Positions 2,892 to 62,765 of a DNA stretch of 64,000 nucleotides are shown here, piece after piece. The translations under genes were made by a program, and so were the position numbers. Position 1 is the stretch's first letter. Every line of letters begins with the position of its first letter. A model generated the notes under the pieces. That model was not told where the DNA came from. It worked only from the letters and a program-made list of their open reading frames with translations, and did no database searches. Origin of the DNA: Paracidobacterium acidisoli (GTDB taxonomy: Bacteria; Acidobacteriota; Terriglobia; Terriglobales; Acidobacteriaceae); NCBI RefSeq assembly GCF_003428625.2, contig NZ_QVQT02000001.1, forward strand, positions 372,001 through 436,000. Direction: 5' to 3'.

Positions 2892-5090
2892 ATGCATCAA
2901 TTTCTGAGGACAAGCGCTCTGCGGCTCGTAACCGTTGCCGGCACCGTGGTGATTTTCGCGGGAAGCCTCAATATATTGCAACCTTCTGCATACGGACGCA
3001 ATTCAGCAAAGGCTCGAGCGATCACACAACAGGACTGGCCGGCATATAACGGCAATCAGAATGGGGATCATTACTCCTCGCTCGCTCAGATCAATCGCAG
3101 CAATATAGCAAAGCTGAAGCCGGCATGGGTCTTCGACCTGAAAGAAGCGGGCGGACTACAGACGAATCCCCTGATCATTGGCCGGACGATGTACGCCTAC
3201 ACCACTACGCAGACAGTTCTTGCTCTCGATGCCGTAAACGGCAAAAAGCTCTGGCAATTTGTTCCGGAACAGCCAAGCCGCCAGCCGGCACGTGGCCTGA
3301 GTTACTGGACAGATGGCAGGACAAGCATTCTGTTCGCAGGAATGGTCAGCTATCTTTACGCGCTCGATCCGCAGACAGGCCGGCCAATTTCAGAATTTGG
3401 CGAGGGAGGACGAATCGATCTGCGGAAGGGTCTGGCTGATCCAGGTGTCGATTACACCAAAACCTTCGCCGCGATGACATCTCCGGGCACGATCTATAAG
3501 GATATGATCATCGTTGGCTTTCGAGCCCCTGAGACGGAACCGGCTTTACGCGGCGATATTCGGGCTTTCGATGTTCATACCGGCGCTCTGCGATGGTCCT
3601 TTCACACCATTCCTCATCCGGGAGAACCAGGATATTCCACCTGGATGCCGCAGTCCTGGAAAACGAGCGGCTCAGCAAATAACTGGGCAGGCATGACGCT
3701 CGATCAAAAGCGCGGAATCCTGTATGTTCCCACCGGCTCTGCGGTCAATGACTTTTATGGGTTTGACCGCATCGGTGACGATCTCTATGCCAACACTCTG
3801 CTGGCGCTGGATGCCAATACGGGCAAACTGATCTGGCATTTTCAGGATGTGCACCATGATATTTGGGATCGCGACTTCCCTTCTCCACCTGCGCTTATCA
3901 CGGTCAGGTCCCACGGCCGATCCATTGATGCAGTGGCTCAAACCTCAAAACAGGGATTTGTTTTCCTCTTCGACCGCGTGACCGGAAAGCCACTCTTTTC
4001 CATTCAGGAAAGGCCATTTCCCCCCTCAGTGGTACCCGGTGAAAAGACCTCACCCACTCAGCCGATTCCACTTGCTCCTGCTCCATACGCGAGACAACGG
4101 CTTACCGCCGACATGCTGACCACGCGCACACCGGAAGCCCATGCCTGGGCCCTCGATCACTTCAGAACATTCGTCAGTGATGGTCAGTTTGTGCCTTTCA
4201 GGGTCGACAAGCAGACGGTGGTGTTTCCCGGATTTGATGGAGGCGCGGAATGGGGTGGGCCCGGTGTCGATCCACACACAGGCGTGATCTATATCAACGC
4301 GAACGATATCGCCTGGACAGGCGGACTGACTGAAAATAAGCCCGGCGCCAGTCTGGGTGAAACGATTTACCAGAGTCAATGCTCAGTTTGCCACGGAGCT
4401 GACCGGCAGGGTTCGCCGCCGGAATTTCCTTCACTCGCCGGTGTCACCGACCGGTTCTCCAATTCGGCAATTGGAGAGATTCTTCATCGTGGCCGAGGTC
4501 GCATGCCTTCCTTTCCGAATATCGACGGTACAAGCGAAGCTGCATTGCTGAACTATCTGCGAACAGGTGGAAAAGAGACATCGGACAGCTCCGGCCATCA
4601 GCAGGCGAAAGAAGTGGCGTCCACACTTGAGCCCCTGAATGGCGAGGCAAAGTACCGTTTTACCGGTTACCGCAAATTCCTCGATCCTGACGGCTACCCT
4701 GCCGTACGCCCCCCATGGGGTACTCTGAATGCCATCGACATGAATACCGGCCACTATCTTTGGAAGATTCCCCTGGGCAGTTATCCGGAGCTTGCGGCCG
4801 CGGGCATGAAAAACACAGGCAGTGAAAACTATGGCGGTCCGCTGGTAACCGCAGGCGGTGTGGTGATGATCGCCGCGACAAATTTCGATCGCCAGATCCG
4901 TGCGTTTAACAGCTCAACCGGTGAGTTGCTGTGGTCAGCGACGCTTCCCTACTCCGGTAATGCCACCCCTGCTACCTATATGATCGACGGCAGGCAATAT
5001 GTTGTTATCGCTGCCAGTGGAGCGCGAGATACAAAAGGACCACAGGGGGCTGCCTATGTCGCATTCGCACTGCCTGAAACGGATAATTAA
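2892..5090 (+). CDS. PQQ-dependent quinoprotein dehydrogenase with inserted cytochrome c domain
   Basis: The product is about 732 residues. A hydrophobic export signal is followed by the quinoprotein beta-propeller (DWPAYNGNQNGDHYS, then repeated LDAxTGKxxW blades). A c-type heme site, CSVCH, sits at about residues 497-501, between the main propeller part and the last blades (NYGGPLVTAGG). The layout resembles membrane- or periplasm-associated glucose/alcohol quinoproteins that pass electrons from PQQ to heme. ATG 2892 gives a clean signal peptide; ATG 2853 would add 13 residues, and neither has a good ribosome site. No pqq synthesis genes are in the window. The substrate is unknown. Confidence 0.9.
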   Translation: MHQFLRTSALRLVTVAGTVVIFAGSLNILQPSAYGRNSAKARAITQQDWPAYNGNQNGDHYSSLAQINRSNIAKLKPAWVFDLKEAGGLQTNPLIIGRTMYAYTTTQTVLALDAVNGKKLWQFVPEQPSRQPARGLSYWTDGRTSILFAGMVSYLYALDPQTGRPISEFGEGGRIDLRKGLADPGVDYTKTFAAMTSPGTIYKDMIIVGFRAPETEPALRGDIRAFDVHTGALRWSFHTIPHPGEPGYSTWMPQSWKTSGSANNWAGMTLDQKRGILYVPTGSAVNDFYGFDRIGDDLYANTLLALDANTGKLIWHFQDVHHDIWDRDFPSPPALITVRSHGRSIDAVAQTSKQGFVFLFDRVTGKPLFSIQERPFPPSVVPGEKTSPTQPIPLAPAPYARQRLTADMLTTRTPEAHAWALDHFRTFVSDGQFVPFRVDKQTVVFPGFDGGAEWGGPGVDPHTGVIYINANDIAWTGGLTENKPGASLGETIYQSQCSVCHGADRQGSPPEFPSLAGVTDRFSNSAIGEILHRGRGRMPSFPNIDGTSEAALLNYLRTGGKETSDSSGHQQAKEVASTLEPLNGEAKYRFTGYRKFLDPDGYPAVRPPWGTLNAIDMNTGHYLWKIPLGSYPELAAAGMKNTGSENYGGPLVTAGGVVMIAATNFDRQIRAFNSSTGELLWSATLPYSGNATPATYMIDGRQYVVIAASGARDTKGPQGAAYVAFALPETDN

Positions 5091-55383: not shown

Positions 55384-56544
55384 TCATGCGGAACGCGTTT
55401 CGCGGCGGCGGCCATACAAAGCGCCGGAGGGTTTCGCGGAGGGCCACAGCTCTTGTTGTACGGGCAGTGCAGGGCCGGGCGAGCCTGCGCTGTCAGCAGG
55501 CAGATCAGGAAACGAGGCCAGCTTCTGCAGCAGCAGCCGATCGGTCGGCCGGCGGTCCAGCTCGTATTTGCGCAGCACGGCGGCGACGATATCGGCGACG
55601 CGTTTGCGGTAGGCCTCCGATACGAAATCTGCATTCCCGTAGCGCTTCGCGTAGTGGTCTTCGAGCTGCGGAAAGTGATCGTGGATGAAGGCCAGAAAGG
55701 TGGGCCGCGAGCAGGGCTTGAGGAAGAGCGGATTGGCCGCCATGAAGCTGGCTCCGGCGCGCTGAGCGCGGCGAGCCACGGACTCGAGCGCGGGCGCGGT
55801 GTCGGTGATGCCGGGCATGACGGGACAGCAGAGGATGCCGGTCTCGAGACCGGCGCGGCGCAGCGCGGCGACGGTGCGGAAGCGCAGATCGGGGCGCGGA
55901 GCGCGCGGCTCGAGGATTCTGGCGAGGCCGGCGTCAGGCGTGGTGATGGTGATGTGCACGACGAGACGGTTGCGGGCGGCGATCCGCTGCAGCAGATCGA
56001 TGTCGCGCTCGATGAGCGTCGATTTGGTGACGATGCCGAGCTGCAGCCCGGCCTGCTCGGCGAAGACCTCAAGCAGGCTGCGCGTGACACGCGCGCGGCG
56101 CTCGATGGGCTGGTAGGGATCGGTCGCGGTGCCGAGAGCGAGGTACTCGCCGCGTTTGATCTTTCGCAGCTCCTGGCGGAAGAGCCAGGCGGCGTTCTGC
56201 TTGATATAGATCTGCCGCTCGAAGAGCTCGGGGTCGCGCAGCTCCATGAACTCGTGTGTGTAGCGGGCGTAGCAGTAGCGGCAGCCGAACTCGCAGCCGC
56301 GATAGGGATTGATGCTCCAGCGGAAGTAGTGCATGCGCTTCGAGACGGATCGGTTGAGGATGGATTTCGCGTCGAGGGAGAGGAACTCCACCAGGTGTCC
56401 GTGGTCGACCTCGTGCCCGCAGGCGGCGATGCGGGCGATTCCTGAGAGGGCCGGCTCGTCGGATTGAAGGATCGGAAAGAGGGGTATTTTCGCTTTTTCT
56501 TCGCCCATGCGGAGAACAGTACGCCGCCGCTTCGATGCGGTCAA
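55384..56544 (-). CDS. Radical SAM protein (spore-photoproduct-lyase-like family)
   Basis: The 386-residue protein has the cluster motif CEFGCRYCYARYTHEF, following the family block NRSVSKRMHYFRWSINPYRG. This is the PA0069/SplB-like radical SAM family, of unknown substrate. It begins with TTG 56544 behind GGAGG; ATG 56508 is an alternative. It is divergent from the metal-dependent hydrolase gene, 56 bases apart. Confidence 0.88.
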   Translation of the reverse strand: MTASKRRRTVLRMGEEKAKIPLFPILQSDEPALSGIARIAACGHEVDHGHLVEFLSLDAKSILNRSVSKRMHYFRWSINPYRGCEFGCRYCYARYTHEFMELRDPELFERQIYIKQNAAWLFRQELRKIKRGEYLALGTATDPYQPIERRARVTRSLLEVFAEQAGLQLGIVTKSTLIERDIDLLQRIAARNRLVVHITITTPDAGLARILEPRAPRPDLRFRTVAALRRAGLETGILCCPVMPGITDTAPALESVARRAQRAGASFMAANPLFLKPCSRPTFLAFIHDHFPQLEDHYAKRYGNADFVSEAYRKRVADIVAAVLRKYELDRRPTDRLLLQKLASFPDLPADSAGSPGPALPVQQELWPSAKPSGALYGRRRETRSA

Positions 56545-56600
56545 GGGCCTTTTCCTCCACGATTTTCATGCTCCCGACAGGGACGCTGTACCCTGTTCGC

Positions 56601-57311
56601 ATGGCAGATCTTAAAGGCGCATCCATTACCTGGCTCGGTCATGCAACGGTGCTGATCACGACGCAGCAGGGCACGACGATCCTGATCGATCCGTTTATCG
56701 AGCACAATCCCAGATACCCGAAGGGCTTCGAGCTTCCGGAGCAGATCGATCTTCTGCTGCTCACGCACGGGCACACCGATCACATTGCCGATGCGGTGCC
56801 GGTGGCGAAGAAACATGGACCGACCGTCGTTGCGAATGTCGAACTCGCGGACTGGATACAGACGAAGGGCGTCGAGAAGGCTATCGGCATGAACCTCGGC
56901 GGGTCATGGCGCTTCAAAGATCTCTCGATTGCGCAGGTGGAGGCGAAGCACTCGTCGAGCATCGAGGACAACGGGCAGGTGCTTTACGGCGGGGTGGCGA
57001 CCGGTTTTGTGCTGACCATCGATCAGGGACCGGTTCTCTATCATGCCGGAGATACGAGCGTATTTGCGGATATGCAGCTTATCCGCGACCTTTATTCACC
57101 GCAGATAGCCATGTTGCCGATTGGCGATTTCTATACGATGGGCCCGAAGGGCGGCGCACAGGCTGCGAAATATCTGGGAGTTAATGCCGTGCTGCCCGTT
57201 CATTTCGGAACTTTTCCGGCACTTACCGGCACACCGCGCGAGCTGGAGCAGTATCTGGCGGGAACATCGGTCGAGGTATTGTTTACCGAACCGGGTAAAG
57301 TTATCCGTTAA
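56601..57311 (+). CDS. Metal-dependent hydrolase (UPF0173 family, MBL fold)
   Basis: The 236-residue cytoplasmic protein starts at MADLKGASITWLGHATVLI, the normal UPF0173 start. The metal site is intact: LTHGHTDHIAD, then LYHAGDTSVFADM and VHFGTFPAL. The reaction is unknown. The reading from 56535 adds antisense sequence of the neighbour's start. The weak hairpin at 57330-57351 may end transcription. Confidence 0.93.
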   Translation: MADLKGASITWLGHATVLITTQQGTTILIDPFIEHNPRYPKGFELPEQIDLLLLTHGHTDHIADAVPVAKKHGPTVVANVELADWIQTKGVEKAIGMNLGGSWRFKDLSIAQVEAKHSSSIEDNGQVLYGGVATGFVLTIDQGPVLYHAGDTSVFADMQLIRDLYSPQIAMLPIGDFYTMGPKGGAQAAKYLGVNAVLPVHFGTFPALTGTPRELEQYLAGTSVEVLFTEPGKVIR

Positions 57312-57803: not shown

Positions 57804-60188
57804 TCAGATTGTATCTCGGTCGGCGGATGCGCGCGGCACGGGAATTCCCTGCTCATCGCGATATCCTGCGCCATAACTCAGACCAAGCGGAGCGCTGCGA
57901 TTGCCGTCCTGCGCGTGACGGCGCAGAGCCGTCAGCGTCTCCTGCTTGTCGCGCGCGTATTCGACGGCGAGACGGGTGAGCGCATAGGTGACGATATCGC
58001 TGTGATGAAGGTTCTGCATTTCGGGCTCGCGGCGGAAGTTGAGCCACAGCCGGTGCACGAGCTGCACGTCTTCGGCCTGCAGCGCGGGCGCATGCGGACC
58101 GATGTGGAAGGACATGGCCTCGCCGTTCGGCATGATCACATAGAACGTGAACTGCCGCTTGGGCTCGGGGAGGTTCTCCCATGCCTGGCCGACGTGCCAG
58201 GCCTGCTGCTGCGCGGACATCTTTGTCGAAAGTCCTGAGACCAGGGCTGTAACTTCGAGCGAGTTAGCTACCTGCACGAGCGCCGCGAAGATATCGCCCG
58301 CGGGCACGACCAGAAGGGAAACATGCTTTCCGAAGCTCTCGGCCACCGATACGGCTTTGGTGAAGAGCATCTGCTCGTGCTCGCTGAAGATCTGCTCGTC
58401 GAGATATTCGGGGCCGCCTGCGCCCATCATGCGGGCGGTGAGCACGACGATGTCCTGCTCATCGGTATCGGTGCGGGCCAGCACCCATTTGAGCGCGAAG
58501 GGATTGGCGGCGTCGCGCACGCTGACGAGTATGCCTCCGGGCCGGATCTGCAGCGTCTCGAGCCCGATGGTGTCTTCGTGCTCCAGCTGGAAGTGCTCCT
58601 TCATCTGCTGATCGGTGACGGCCTGACGGCGCAGGTTGCGGCGCTCGGAGATGGCAAAGATGGTGAAGAAGGCGGCGGTAAAGGCCACGCCGCTGATGGT
58701 GGCCACGCTCTTGGTGAACAGATTGACGGTGGCCGTGGTGAAGAGGGTGAGAAAGACGCAGAAGAGGCCGATGGGAAGCTCGGTCTTCCCTATCTTCAGA
58801 TTGACGGGCACCTTCCAGCCGCGCTCGCCCTTGTACTTCCAGCGGAGCACGAGCATGGCGAGCGAGTTGAAGGTGAAGCTCCAGATGACGCCGAAGGCGT
58901 AGGCCTCGCCGAGGGTGATGACGTTGCCCCAGCTGACGATGATGGTAAAGAGCTGCAGCCCGGTGACCAGATTGACGATGCGGGAGCTGGTGCCGAAGCG
59001 GCGGTGCGGCTTGCGGAACCAGTCGGTCAGCACACCGTCTTCGGCGACGCGCATAAGCACGCCGGTCGAGCCGATGATCGATGTGTTGACGGCTCCGGAG
59101 AGCATCAGGAATCCGACGATGACGACGAAGACGCGGAAGACGATGCGCAGCGTGATCGGACCCACCATATACATGGCCAGACCGGCGATGAGGTTGTCGC
59201 GATAGACGGGCACGCGCACGCTGTCGGGGATGATCATGACCGCGAGCAGCGAGACGATGCCGGTGAAGACGAAGCTGTAGATGGCGATGACGATGGCGGC
59301 GCGCTTGAGATTTTTGAGCTTGGGGTGCTCGATCTCGCGATTGACCTGGGCCAGCGTCTCTTCGCCGCTCATGGCCAGCACGGAGTGGCCGAAGGCCATG
59401 AGGATGCCGAAGAGTCCGAGCGTGGTCGCCAGCTTTGTGCCGCCGAGAAAGCCGAGCGCGTCGTGCGAGAAGTGGAGGTTCGAGGGAACGGGCAGCGGCG
59501 GCAGGTGCGCGCCGCGCCAGAAGACGGTGAAGAAGCCCCAGCCGAGAAGCAGGACCACCATGACGGTGGTGATCTTCATGACCTCAAGCGCCTTGTCCGT
59601 CGATTCCTCGATGCCCTTGATGTTCTGCCACCAGAAATACACGGTGACCGCGAGGGCGAAGACCGCGGACATGCCGTTCATGGGCAGATGGCGCGCCTCG
59701 TGCGCGCCGATGAGCAGCGCCGGAGGCAGCCAGCCGTGGACTGCGCCCACCTGCAGCAGCTCATTCAGCAGGCCGGTAATGTACTGACCGGCCGAAACGC
59801 CGGAGATCGGCCCGGTGAGGATGTAATCGAACATCAGCGCGGAGACGCTCATCTTGGCGAAGGTTCCGCCGAGGGCCTCCTTGACCACGCGATAGACGCC
59901 GCCGCGGGTAAACATCGAGCAGCTCTCGACATAGACTGCCCGGACGGCAAAGGAGAAGAGCATGACGCCGAGAATGAACCAGGGCGCGGCCTTGCCGACG
60001 GCCTCCTCTGCGATGCCTCCGGCATAAAACGCCGAGGAGCCGAGGTCATTGAGCACGACCGCGGCGGCACGCCAGAAGGAGATGAAGGTGAGCATGACGG
60101 AGGAAGCGACAACCAGCTTCACTCGCATCGAGTGTGGGGCGTTATACGTGGATCCGGCTGACATGGAATGAGGACGAACTGCGCCCAT
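57804..60188 (-). CDS. APC-family permease with a C-terminal cytoplasmic domain
   Basis: The 794-residue protein has about twelve hydrophobic segments in its first 480 residues, with the APC start SMRVKLVVASSVMLTF. A soluble C-terminal part of about 300 residues follows and includes a region with UspA-like texture (KWVLARTDTDEQDIVVLTAR, HVSLLVVPAGDIFAALVQVA). The substrate is likely an amino acid or another small cation-coupled solute. The start at 60188 lies nine bases after AAGGG; ATG 60164 is an alternative. Confidence 0.85.
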   Translation of the reverse strand: MGAVRPHSMSAGSTYNAPHSMRVKLVVASSVMLTFISFWRAAAVVLNDLGSSAFYAGGIAEEAVGKAAPWFILGVMLFSFAVRAVYVESCSMFTRGGVYRVVKEALGGTFAKMSVSALMFDYILTGPISGVSAGQYITGLLNELLQVGAVHGWLPPALLIGAHEARHLPMNGMSAVFALAVTVYFWWQNIKGIEESTDKALEVMKITTVMVVLLLGWGFFTVFWRGAHLPPLPVPSNLHFSHDALGFLGGTKLATTLGLFGILMAFGHSVLAMSGEETLAQVNREIEHPKLKNLKRAAIVIAIYSFVFTGIVSLLAVMIIPDSVRVPVYRDNLIAGLAMYMVGPITLRIVFRVFVVIVGFLMLSGAVNTSIIGSTGVLMRVAEDGVLTDWFRKPHRRFGTSSRIVNLVTGLQLFTIIVSWGNVITLGEAYAFGVIWSFTFNSLAMLVLRWKYKGERGWKVPVNLKIGKTELPIGLFCVFLTLFTTATVNLFTKSVATISGVAFTAAFFTIFAISERRNLRRQAVTDQQMKEHFQLEHEDTIGLETLQIRPGGILVSVRDAANPFALKWVLARTDTDEQDIVVLTARMMGAGGPEYLDEQIFSEHEQMLFTKAVSVAESFGKHVSLLVVPAGDIFAALVQVANSLEVTALVSGLSTKMSAQQQAWHVGQAWENLPEPKRQFTFYVIMPNGEAMSFHIGPHAPALQAEDVQLVHRLWLNFRREPEMQNLHHSDIVTYALTRLAVEYARDKQETLTALRRHAQDGNRSAPLGLSYGAGYRDEQGIPVPRASADRDTI

Positions 60189-60315
60189 TCATCGTCCCTT
60201 TTGAAGACGGGGACTGCCGAAGGGACGCCCAGGGGTGAGTGTATAACAGCCGTCCGTCCCGACCAAGGAAAGCTTTCCGCTATCAAAACGGCGTTTCGGC
60301 GGAGGACGTCTGACT

Positions 60316-60474
60316 GTGTTTGCACTTCGCGGCGATATAATCGTTCTCGTGATCGCCTTCGCGCATGCCGGGATGCATCTGCTTGTCTTCCTGTTCTTTC
60401 TGGGACTGGTGGGGTCTTCGGCTATCGTCGTCATCAGCTTCATCGAAGATCTGACCGAACTGTTCGGCGAATAA
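60316..60474 (+). CDS. Small membrane protein, 52 residues, coupled to lnt
   Basis: GTG 60316 opens a 52-codon frame ending TAA at 60472-60474, in a frame different from lnt. The product starts MFALRGDIIVLVIAFAHAG, has one long or two short hydrophobic segments (LLVFLFFLGLVG, then AIVVISF), and ends in the acidic tail EDLTELFGE. GGAGG sits about ten bases upstream. lnt starts eight bases after its stop, which suggests coupling. No motif names its function. Confidence 0.7.
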   Translation: MFALRGDIIVLVIAFAHAGMHLLVFLFFLGLVGSSAIVVISFIEDLTELFGE

Positions 60475-60482
60475 ATTCCATC

Positions 60483-62135
60483 GTGGCTACCGCGCTGCAT
60501 TCTGCCGCTCCCGCCGCTTCGGCTCCGGTGCGCTCTTCCCTTCCCGGATACGCGCTGGCGCTGCTCTCCGCCATTCTGCTCAATTACTGCTTTCCGGTTG
60601 CGGGTCCGGTGCCGGTGTGGCGCACGGGACTGGCGTGGATCGCGCTGACTCCGCTGCTGTATGCGCTGCTCTGCCGCGCGACGGCCGAGTCGCCGCGTCC
60701 GCTGCGCAGCGCGACGCTGACGGCGTATCTCTGCGGCGTCGTCTGGTACGTGCTGAACTGCTACTGGATTTACCAGACCATGTTCTATTACGGGCACGTG
60801 CCGCCGGTGGGCTCGGCCGGCATTGTGCTGCTCTTCAGCCTGATTCTCGGCCTTTACTTCGCGCTCTTCGGCTTTCTGGTCGCGTATTTTCGACTGCGCT
60901 TCGGAGTGTGGGCGGCGCTCGGGCTGGCTCCGTTTGCGTGGACGGGGATCGAGCTGGCCGGGGCGCGCGTCACCAGCGTTCCGTGGGACCAGCTTGGCTA
61001 TGCGCAGGTGGACAACCTGTGGCTGACGAAGATTGCGCCCGTCACCGGCGTGTACGGGATCTCCTTCATTCTGGTCGCGGTGAGCGCGCTGCTGACGGCG
61101 GCGCTGGTGGCGGCGCCATTCCGCGCGCGCGCAATGGCGGGAGCAGTGGCCGTGGTACTGGCGGGAGCGCTGCAGTGCGGCTGCTTCGTCTCACCGGCCG
61201 CGTCACCGACTTCGAATTATGCGGTAATGCTGCAGCCGAATATCGATGTGGCCACGGACGATCACTGGATCGGCGAGGAGTGGGACGGGCAGGTTGCGTG
61301 GATTCTGCAGCAGAGCCTGAGCACGTGCAGCGAAGCCTATGCGGGACTGCCACAGAGGCAGACTGCGCTGACGACGCCGGCGTGCGACCGCAATGTCACT
61401 GCGCCGGGCGTGGTGGTGTGGCCGGAGGTGGCGTCGTGGTTCATGAGCGATCGTCCGCAGACGATTGCGGCGATGCGCGCGATTGCGGAGACGGCGCATG
61501 CTCCGGTGATTGCCGGGATGCTGGGCCACGATGCGAGCGGGACATACAACTCGGCGGTGTTTACGAATCCCGACGGACAGATCGTCGGACGGTACGACAA
61601 GATTCACCTTGTGCCCTTCGGCGAATATATTCCCTATCGCAATCTGCTCTTCTTCGCGCACAAGCTGACGCAGCAGGTAGGCGACCTGCAGCGCGGTCGG
61701 GCGCGCAATGTGTTTCAGACGGACGGGCACACCTTCGGCACCATCATCTGCTACGAGTCGGTCTTTGCGGATGAGGTGCGCCTGTTCGTGAAGAACGGCG
61801 CGCAGGTGCTGGTGAATATCTCCGATGACGGATGGTATGGCGACACGAGCGCCCCGTGGCAGCACCTTTACATGACGCGGATGCGGGCGATCGAGAACCA
61901 TCGCTGGGTGCTGCTCGATACCAACTCCGGCGTGACGACGGCGATCGATCCGAGAGGACGCGTGACGGTGTCGGCGCCGCGCCATGCGCTGACCTCGCTG
62001 GTGGCCCGGTACGGCTACGAGAGCGACGTGACCTTCTACACGCAGTACGGCGATGTCTTTGCGTATCTGTGCGTGCTGGCGGTCTGTGCAGCTGCGGGCG
62101 GCGCACTGCTTACGAAACGCCGCTCCGCGGTCTGA
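60483..62135 (+). CDS. lnt: Apolipoprotein N-acyltransferase
   Basis: The 550-residue inner-membrane enzyme completes lipoprotein maturation by N-acylation. It starts with GTG 60483 (MATALHSAAPAASAPV); the reading from 60168 covers the small protein's frame and is not supported. About seven hydrophobic segments precede the periplasmic nitrilase domain, with catalytic residues visible in VVWPEVASWF (Glu), YDKIHLVPFGEY (Lys) and TIICYESVFADEV (Cys). Confidence 0.95.
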   Translation: MATALHSAAPAASAPVRSSLPGYALALLSAILLNYCFPVAGPVPVWRTGLAWIALTPLLYALLCRATAESPRPLRSATLTAYLCGVVWYVLNCYWIYQTMFYYGHVPPVGSAGIVLLFSLILGLYFALFGFLVAYFRLRFGVWAALGLAPFAWTGIELAGARVTSVPWDQLGYAQVDNLWLTKIAPVTGVYGISFILVAVSALLTAALVAAPFRARAMAGAVAVVLAGALQCGCFVSPAASPTSNYAVMLQPNIDVATDDHWIGEEWDGQVAWILQQSLSTCSEAYAGLPQRQTALTTPACDRNVTAPGVVVWPEVASWFMSDRPQTIAAMRAIAETAHAPVIAGMLGHDASGTYNSAVFTNPDGQIVGRYDKIHLVPFGEYIPYRNLLFFAHKLTQQVGDLQRGRARNVFQTDGHTFGTIICYESVFADEVRLFVKNGAQVLVNISDDGWYGDTSAPWQHLYMTRMRAIENHRWVLLDTNSGVTTAIDPRGRVTVSAPRHALTSLVARYGYESDVTFYTQYGDVFAYLCVLAVCAAAGGALLTKRRSAV

Positions 62136-62138
62136 ACT

Positions 62139-62765
62139 TTACTTCGCCGCAGGCGTGACCACGCCGCGCTCCCACGGAGGAGGCACCTTCACCGAGGCCA
62201 TGCCGGCCGCAGCCGCGGCTTCAATGCCCATATCGGTGTCTTCAAAGACGAGGCAGGCTTCCGGAGCAACGCCGAGGCGTTCGGCAGCGAGAAGAAATGC
62301 CTCCGGATGCGGCTTGGCATTTTTGTAGTCGCCGGCGCAGACCAGGGTGTCGAAGCGGTCGAGAAGGTCAAGGGAGCGGAGCGATTCGGTCACGCTTTCG
62401 CGGGTGCTTCCGGAGACGACGGCGAAGGGGATGCGTCCGTGCGCGTCCTCGATGTGCTCGACAACCTCGGGGACGGCCTGCAGCTGGGAGAGGATCTCGA
62501 AGTAGAGGGCTTCCTTCCGGCGCTGCACGGTTTCGACGGGCATGGCGAGGCCCTGCTGCTCATTAAGCGACTGGATGATCTCGACGACGGGACGGCCTCC
62601 CCAGGCGTAGAAGAGCTTCTCGTCGAAGACACAGCTCCACTCGCCGAGGGCCTTCGTCCAGGCGACGTAATGCAGCGGCATGGAGTCGGCGATGGTTCCG
62701 TCGCAGTCGAAGAGATAGGCTTTGAACTCGCCCGGGGGCAGAGGCAGCTTCATGGTCTGTGTCAT
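62139..62765 (-). CDS. HAD-family phosphatase (beta-phosphoglucomutase-like)
   Basis: The 208-residue protein has the HAD motifs: YLFDCDGTIADS (motif I, with nucleophile Asp and the second Asp), VVSGSTRESV (motif II), and NAKPHPEAF with VFEDTDMGIEAA (motifs III/IV). The cap domain is of the small-helical type of sugar-phosphate mutases and phosphatases. The substrate is unknown. It converges with lnt, three bases apart. Confidence 0.9.
   Translation of the reverse strand: MTQTMKLPLPPGEFKAYLFDCDGTIADSMPLHYVAWTKALGEWSCVFDEKLFYAWGGRPVVEIIQSLNEQQGLAMPVETVQRRKEALYFEILSQLQAVPEVVEHIEDAHGRIPFAVVSGSTRESVTESLRSLDLLDRFDTLVCAGDYKNAKPHPEAFLLAAERLGVAPEACLVFEDTDMGIEAAAAAGMASVKVPPPWERGVVTPAAK

Follow-up and report, generated by a model that had tools for sequence, protein, structure and literature searches.

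KdpF is a tiny membrane peptide of about 30 residues encoded with the KdpABC K+ pump (PMC3618439), and AcrZ and CydX are small membrane proteins that act with larger membrane complexes (PMC7267776, PMC6005532). The window, the whole 64,000-nucleotide stretch of DNA that was analysed, carries a small gene (Table 1) that may be set beside these systems. Like KdpF, its predicted product is a tiny membrane peptide encoded beside a putative K+ transport system, and small size and membrane location are common to it and to AcrZ and CydX as these are described. It differs from KdpF in being longer, in its acidic tail, in its neighbour (a KimA-like carrier, not a P-type pump), in its own predicted leaderless promoter, and in that no Pfam family is matched at E <= 0.01 by any of 48 members, Pfam including a KdpF model; its partners differ from those of AcrZ and CydX, a sequence relation to which was sought via family libraries only. 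To our knowledge no small subunit has been described for KUP-type carriers, such a role being known to us only for other transporter types. With regard to expression, leaderless genes that carry a TANNNT box some 12 bp ahead of their start were predicted in silico in three of three Acidobacteria genomes, making up 13.3% of genes on average (PMC3160421); the small gene has the same box identity and spacing and, as far as that survey describes such genes, departs from them in nothing beyond the particular gene. The explanation that best accommodates the whole locus, and to which we would give an even chance, is that of a leaderless gene for a 41-residue protein, inverted here, whose product is an accessory subunit of the KimA-like permease C1.

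The small gene is a real translated gene, under purifying selection in its own frame only. Across 64 pairs above 72% nucleotide identity, drawn from the 50 distinct loci, the window among them, that are strong (E < 1e-12), pN/pS is 0.21 in the small-gene frame versus 1.23 and 2.62 when the frame is shifted either way, and a pair differs on average by 12.5, 7.1 and 21.0 at codon positions 1, 2 and 3; translation and purifying selection follow from this frame-specific pattern. Searching with the 52 residues of the longer reading gave matches at E <= 1 in 93 of 150 same-family genomes, and a profile built from 31 rows found the gene in 90 of 150 family genomes (E <= 1e-3) and in 197 of 298 genomes of the order (E <= 0.1). 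In draws on the class and the phylum (E <= 0.01), 58 of 299 and 27 of 297 genomes matched, 55 and 22 of them belonging to the window's family; of the three and five matches outside it, one is strong (in G481) and the other seven are weak, six of those lying inside frames of at least 392 aa. Among the genomes searched, the small-protein family is almost confined to the window's bacterial family. The strong outside match (G481:C929:8868-8990) comes from another family of the class, in a genome 80% complete and 6% contaminated, and is perhaps a stray contig.

Table 1. Features of the small-gene locus, in window coordinates
Feature	Position	Strand	Remarks
APC-type permease C1, 786 aa	57804..60164	-	PF13520; predicted KimA-like fold and C-terminal domain; steady genomic companion of the small gene
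C1 promoter (predicted)	60238..60266	-	TTGGTC (3/6 to consensus), 17 nt, TACACT (60243-60238), leader 73 nt
GGAGG	60301..60305	+	upstream of the predicted promoter; no ribosome site for the small gene
First 11 codons of the 52-aa frame	60316..60348	+	hold the -10 box, poorly conserved; probably untranslated
-10 box TATAAT	60336..60341	+	7 nt before GTG 60349; leaderless transcript predicted
Small membrane protein gene	60349..60474	+	GTG start, 41 aa; conservation, pN/pS, box spacing, AlphaFold helix
Gap, small-gene stop to lnt start, 8 nt	60475..60482	+	no Shine-Dalgarno; possible termination-reinitiation
lnt, apolipoprotein N-acyltransferase, 550 aa	60483..62135	+	TIGR00546, E 1.4e-88; weak upstream box TAAATT

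Four residues of the protein (F16, G19, G22 and D34) never vary among 48 members, and AlphaFold models the 41 residues as one helix (residues 2-40, mean pLDDT 95.9). PHROGs gave no match for the small protein, and a search of the literature returned no on-topic title on a small membrane protein with a permease in acidobacteria. A SecF identity of the 52-aa reading was rejected, the NCBIfam matches having E 0.0015 and worse and at most 18 bits against cut-offs above 300; they are taken as chance similarity of a hydrophobic helix. On this picture, if true, there is no Pfam model for a gene that most sampled genomes of an abundant soil family retain.

In its longer reading the frame runs from GTG 60316 to the TAA at 60472-60474, 52 aa with a hydrophobic core and an acidic tail. 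These features, the GGAGG and the stop 8 nt before the lnt GTG are all as the preliminary description had them; its choice of start, with GGAGG as ribosome site, has had to be abandoned. A -10 type box, defined as beginning with T-A, ending with T, agreeing with TATAAT in at least four of six bases and preceding an in-frame ATG or GTG, stands 6-9 nt before the start in 48 of the 50 strong loci, window included, where shuffles expect 4.4 (the exceptions are L019 and L021); the spacing is 6 or 7 nt in 42 of the 48. A stricter box (at least 5/6 bases, 6-7 nt spacing) is found in 40 of 50 loci against 0.4 expected from shuffled sequence. Median protein length is 41 aa over the 48 members, the window's among them, whose start is set by the box; relatives' proteins share the window's C-terminal end yet start later, 23 of 29 best matches in other genomes beginning at residue 9 or later of the 52-aa reading. 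In four relatives (L004, L005, L012 and L020) an in-frame TAG is the first codon of the box, making an upstream translation start impossible there, and the seven other tandem relatives (L007, L014, L015, L019, L022, L049 and L087) have no GGAGG in the stretch shown upstream of the box. The small gene thus probably starts eleven codons later than first read, and the start at 60316 is rejected on box spacing, median length, in-frame TAGs and poor N-terminal conservation. Comparison across these loci strongly indicates that the gene is transcribed from a -10 box of its own as a leaderless mRNA and yields a 41-residue protein; with that predicted start, the GGAGG would lie outside the transcript. 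The weaker relatives, 21 in number and mostly paralogs, show no enrichment of the box (9 versus 8.1 expected), which limits the leaderless statement to the window-type gene.

Gene order separates the window from most of its relatives. When small-gene and lnt places were joined by genome, 38 of the 47 strong places (E < 1e-12) proved divergent from lnt, seven tandem and two without a listed lnt (L016 and L017); lnt fragments at these two show the divergent order, bringing the totals to 40 and seven. The tandem places are those of the window, four g34 genomes and two g47 genomes. With respect to C1, 39 of the 47 lie directly upstream on the same strand, three are divergent (window, G046 and G103), and five have C1 on another contig (the four g34 genomes and the fragmented G141); in G134, G029 and G107 the copy stands before C1 though lnt is 2-3 kb off or on another contig. 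Tandem order is seen at none of 54 weaker places, 26 of which are divergent within 3 kb of lnt and two at 5-8 kb, with 26 on another contig. In an lnt tree of 44 rows the seven tandem rows form two groups among divergent rows, a pattern with which a single origin of the tandem order would still be compatible. Given that lnt usually points one way and the small gene with C1 the other, inversion of the small gene gives the best account of the order in the window. An ancestral order with the small gene between lnt and C1, toward C1 and away from lnt, is strongly indicated, as is the turning round of the gene together with its promoter in the window's lineage, lnt now lying downstream. The locus is in this sense a natural case of a flipped promoter-gene cassette changing which neighbour gets driven.

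The steady companion of the small gene is C1. With orthologs taken as matches above 1000 bits (89 genomes) plus three partial matches at >= 68% identity, C1 is present in 47 of 47 strong small-gene carriers, and the 55 genomes that lack C1 include no strong carrier. At E <= 1e-3 a small-gene match occurs in 87 of 92 C1-bearing genomes versus two of 55 without C1 (G052 and G058), a looser count that takes in paralogs at other places and whose Fisher value ignores relatedness; three genomes with unlisted partial matches (G080, G086 and G093) were set aside, and all these co-occurrence counts are inflated by shared ancestry. Within genus g35, C1 is found in 18 of 18 carriers tested and in none of nine non-carriers tested, among the non-carriers being G260 and G292 with very weak small-gene matches. 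On an lnt tree of 22 g35 genomes with three outgroup rows, the joint small-gene/C1 state must have changed three to four times, and well-supported branches force no fewer than two of these changes, the long rows L189 and L201 being less surely placed. As the two genes are adjacent, one deletion can remove both, and the evidence for C1 as the relevant neighbour is good rather than decisive. Nineteen further loci, where C1 or lnt is present without a good small-gene match beside it, were fetched: five hold diverged small frames (L122, L123, L133, L138 and L139), L136 holds a fragment, L140 a frameshifted frame, and at the rest no small frame was seen, so that C1 is kept there without the small gene. 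At L140 (G053, about 582-756) the small gene beside C1 appears frameshifted, through decay to a pseudogene or an assembly error. Upstream of 16 more distant C1 paralogs no small gene lies beside the permease; at one of these paralogs (L160) a small-gene copy is found at a distance of about 1 kb, facing away.

In C1 the ATG at 60188 comes first but is probably not the start; relatives begin at the equivalent of ATG 60164. In most close relatives the C1 promoter reads TTGACN-17-TANACTC with a leader of mostly 60-100 nt; it is kept in the four g34 genomes that have C1 elsewhere, takes a weaker form in the window, and in a loose version of the box is seen in 52 of 87 C1 loci, paralogs included. 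In the ancestral order the small gene, lnt and C1 seem each to have been promoted apart. Since C1 has its own promoter between both genes, one operon with the small gene is not needed, and a strict operon of the two is weakened as a candidate. Directly after the -10 box, C1 relatives carry a motif, in its best form CTCAGCGCTGAGCG, that holds a 12-base palindrome and is followed by about 70 nt of leader; it may possibly be an operator. Rfam reports no known RNA in 60100-60600 up to E 1.

What C1 transports can be approached through its fold. Foldseek on the C1 model, itself weak (pLDDT 58.8), ranks KimA first, second and third, and with a second aligner the top three chains are again KimA (Z 20.0-21.3), LAT-type transporters following at 19.1 and below over the membrane part; KimA is the sole type among the first 30 rows of the second aligner to cover both the membrane and the C-terminal parts of C1. 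The K+ and H+ residues of KimA are D36, Y43, D117, Y118, T121, S125, T230, E233 and Y377 (PMC6994465). In 20 C1 sequences D47/Y54, D120/Y121/T124/S128 and S273/E276 are invariant and keep the spacing of KimA D36/Y43, D117/Y118/T121/S125 and T230/E233, a pairing made by eye via spacing and with which the structural aligner, starting model residue 42 at KimA 37, disagrees at D36; Y429 as the counterpart of Y377 is a guess. On this model and pairing, C1 would have in common with the KimA/KUP K+/H+ symporters a predicted APC fold with a C-terminal domain, which is its best fold match, and acidic and tyrosine residues at KimA-like spacing. It differs in its greater length and in having no PDB sequence match to KimA (single-sequence and profile searches of the PDB did not find KimA and gave nothing useful), and transport by C1 is a prediction. 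On the model and these residues, the best guess at the substrate is a cation, probably K+. Among the matches listed for KimA in acidobacteria, no title was on topic.

The relation to lnt is of another kind. As the preliminary description observed, lnt has no ribosome site of its own, no Shine-Dalgarno preceding GTG 60483. It is present in 143 of 150 family genomes, and being near-universal its presence carries little information on partnership. A scan for a -10 box 4-10 nt before any of several possible lnt starts, counted by genome with a shuffle control, found one in 39 of 43 divergent genomes (4.4 expected) and in 37 of 41 genomes whose fetched stretch showed no small gene (4.8 expected), versus one of eight tandem genomes (0.5 expected), this one being the window with TAAATT (4/6). 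The difference between divergent and tandem genomes suggests that in the window's lineage it is probably the promoter of the small gene on which lnt relies. In the tandem lineage, then, lnt would probably be transcribed from that promoter, perhaps with its translation coupled to that of the small gene, having apparently given up its own leaderless promoter after the flip of the cassette. Over all genome clusters a -10 like box precedes lnt in 77 of 92 (9.7 expected; L002-L012 are examples), and lnt itself looks leaderless in the family.

With lnt starts chosen by eye, the gap from the small-gene stop to lnt is 8 nt in the window and 9 and 16 nt in L084 and L085, without Shine-Dalgarno in all three; it is longer, with Shine-Dalgarno-like motifs, in L083 and L086, and about 190-220 nt in L082 and L087. 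The coupling put forward in the preliminary description is plausible for the window's lineage, as a local and derived arrangement; it is not a family trait. The conservation for which it proposed to look was found in part, the frame being conserved with a synonymous-site excess and the co-directional place before lnt being held at seven of 47 strong places. In G132, a genus g47 genome 86% complete, the small gene and C1 are gone, lnt is kept, and a metallo-hydrolase frame like the window's 56535-57311 lies directly before lnt; the two other sampled g47 genomes are tandem. In 20 of 60 genomes without a match that were examined, no hydrophobic small frame but lnt itself was seen before lnt, and the literature offered no on-topic title on lnt with a small membrane protein. 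The minus-strand frame after lnt (62139-62765) is presumably phosphatase-like, judged by eye, and the frame beyond it we take to be peptide chain release factor 2. A member of the cluster to which this release-factor-2-like frame belongs directly follows lnt in many relatives.

Taken as an accessory subunit, the 41-residue protein would cross the membrane once as a helix, with its conserved F..G..GS face packed against a polytopic membrane protein as partner and its acidic tail placed at the membrane surface. The likeliest partner would be C1, as a KimA/KUP-like cation (K+) transporter, and the peptide could serve as a small accessory or regulatory subunit modulating C1, as KdpF or AcrZ do for theirs; transcription of lnt from the small gene, and perhaps translational coupling to it, would be a by-product of the inversion. 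We infer a candidate interaction between the small protein and C1 from genome comparison. Against it speak the separate C1 promoter, the loci that keep C1 without the small gene and the mixed neighbours of the paralogs; in addition, all four g34 genomes have the small gene still beside lnt and C1 on a different contig, and the window's copy is no longer on C1's strand. A free-standing small membrane protein, acting for example in membrane stress or as a sensor-kinase partner and owing its place to inherited gene order, would accord with the separate promoters of the small gene and C1 and with paralogs beside many unrelated genes, but would leave unaccounted for the presence of C1 in every strong carrier, the lack of strong carriers among the 55 genomes without C1, and the joint coming and going of the two genes in the g35 genomes tested; we hold it conceivable without thinking it probable. 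If C1 is indeed the partner, a KUP/KimA-type carrier gains a small subunit, perhaps the first for the KUP type.

A further reading has the small protein serving lnt: in this lineage its translation would open the start of lnt through termination-reinitiation, and the protein may in addition act as an lnt partner. The three short gaps without Shine-Dalgarno, the contrast in lnt boxes between divergent and tandem genomes (the single tandem box being the window's weak one) and the g34 genomes with the small gene by lnt and C1 elsewhere all point that way, yet 40 of the 47 strong cases have the small gene facing away from lnt, 143 of 150 genomes contain lnt as against 90 with the small gene, G132 retains lnt though the small gene is gone, and among the other tandem loci two have the gaps of about 190-220 nt and two the longer ones with Shine-Dalgarno-like motifs. 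Such service to lnt is unlikely, and lnt as a conserved partner in the general case is rejected on the divergent majority and G132; the claim that lnt requires the small gene or partners it finds no support in these counts. That a real small membrane protein gene lies directly before lnt, also claimed at the outset, is borne out by its presence in 90 of 150 genomes and its pN/pS. A chance open frame without product, to be considered for anything so short in GC-rich DNA full of spurious open frames, is scarcely credible in the face of frame-specific purifying selection, family-wide conservation with invariant residues, and conserved box-to-start spacing. The accessory-subunit reading can be drawn more sharply, with the leaderless 41-residue single-helix proteins as a new family and a dedicated subunit or regulator of a KimA-like K+ importer in Acidobacteriaceae and the flipped cassette as having taken over lnt expression; in so specific a form it is a long shot, though if true the flip ties lipoprotein maturation to potassium transport control.

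Paralogs of the small gene have mixed neighbours, among them a GH43 hydrolase, a P-type ATPase, ftsK, methylmalonyl-CoA mutase and KdpDE-like kinases, and some adjoin a DUF4118 histidine kinase with a response regulator. At L064 the best NCBIfam scores of kinase and regulator are to KdpD and KdpE, both below curated cut-offs; such KdpD/KdpE-like genes beside some paralogs fit K+ as the C1 substrate. Kdp-type genes were rejected as a general partner of the paralogs, since only some adjoin KdpD/KdpE-like genes and the others are mixed; no kdpABC was named among the paralog neighbours scanned, and the neighbours of the window-type gene are lnt and C1. At L064, L066 and L067 (about 3900-4200) paralogs come after genes that cluster with a DUF4118 kinase, with a KdpE-like regulator and with a BBP2 porin, and L077 (3952-4349) holds two relatives of the small gene, placed back to back on the two strands.
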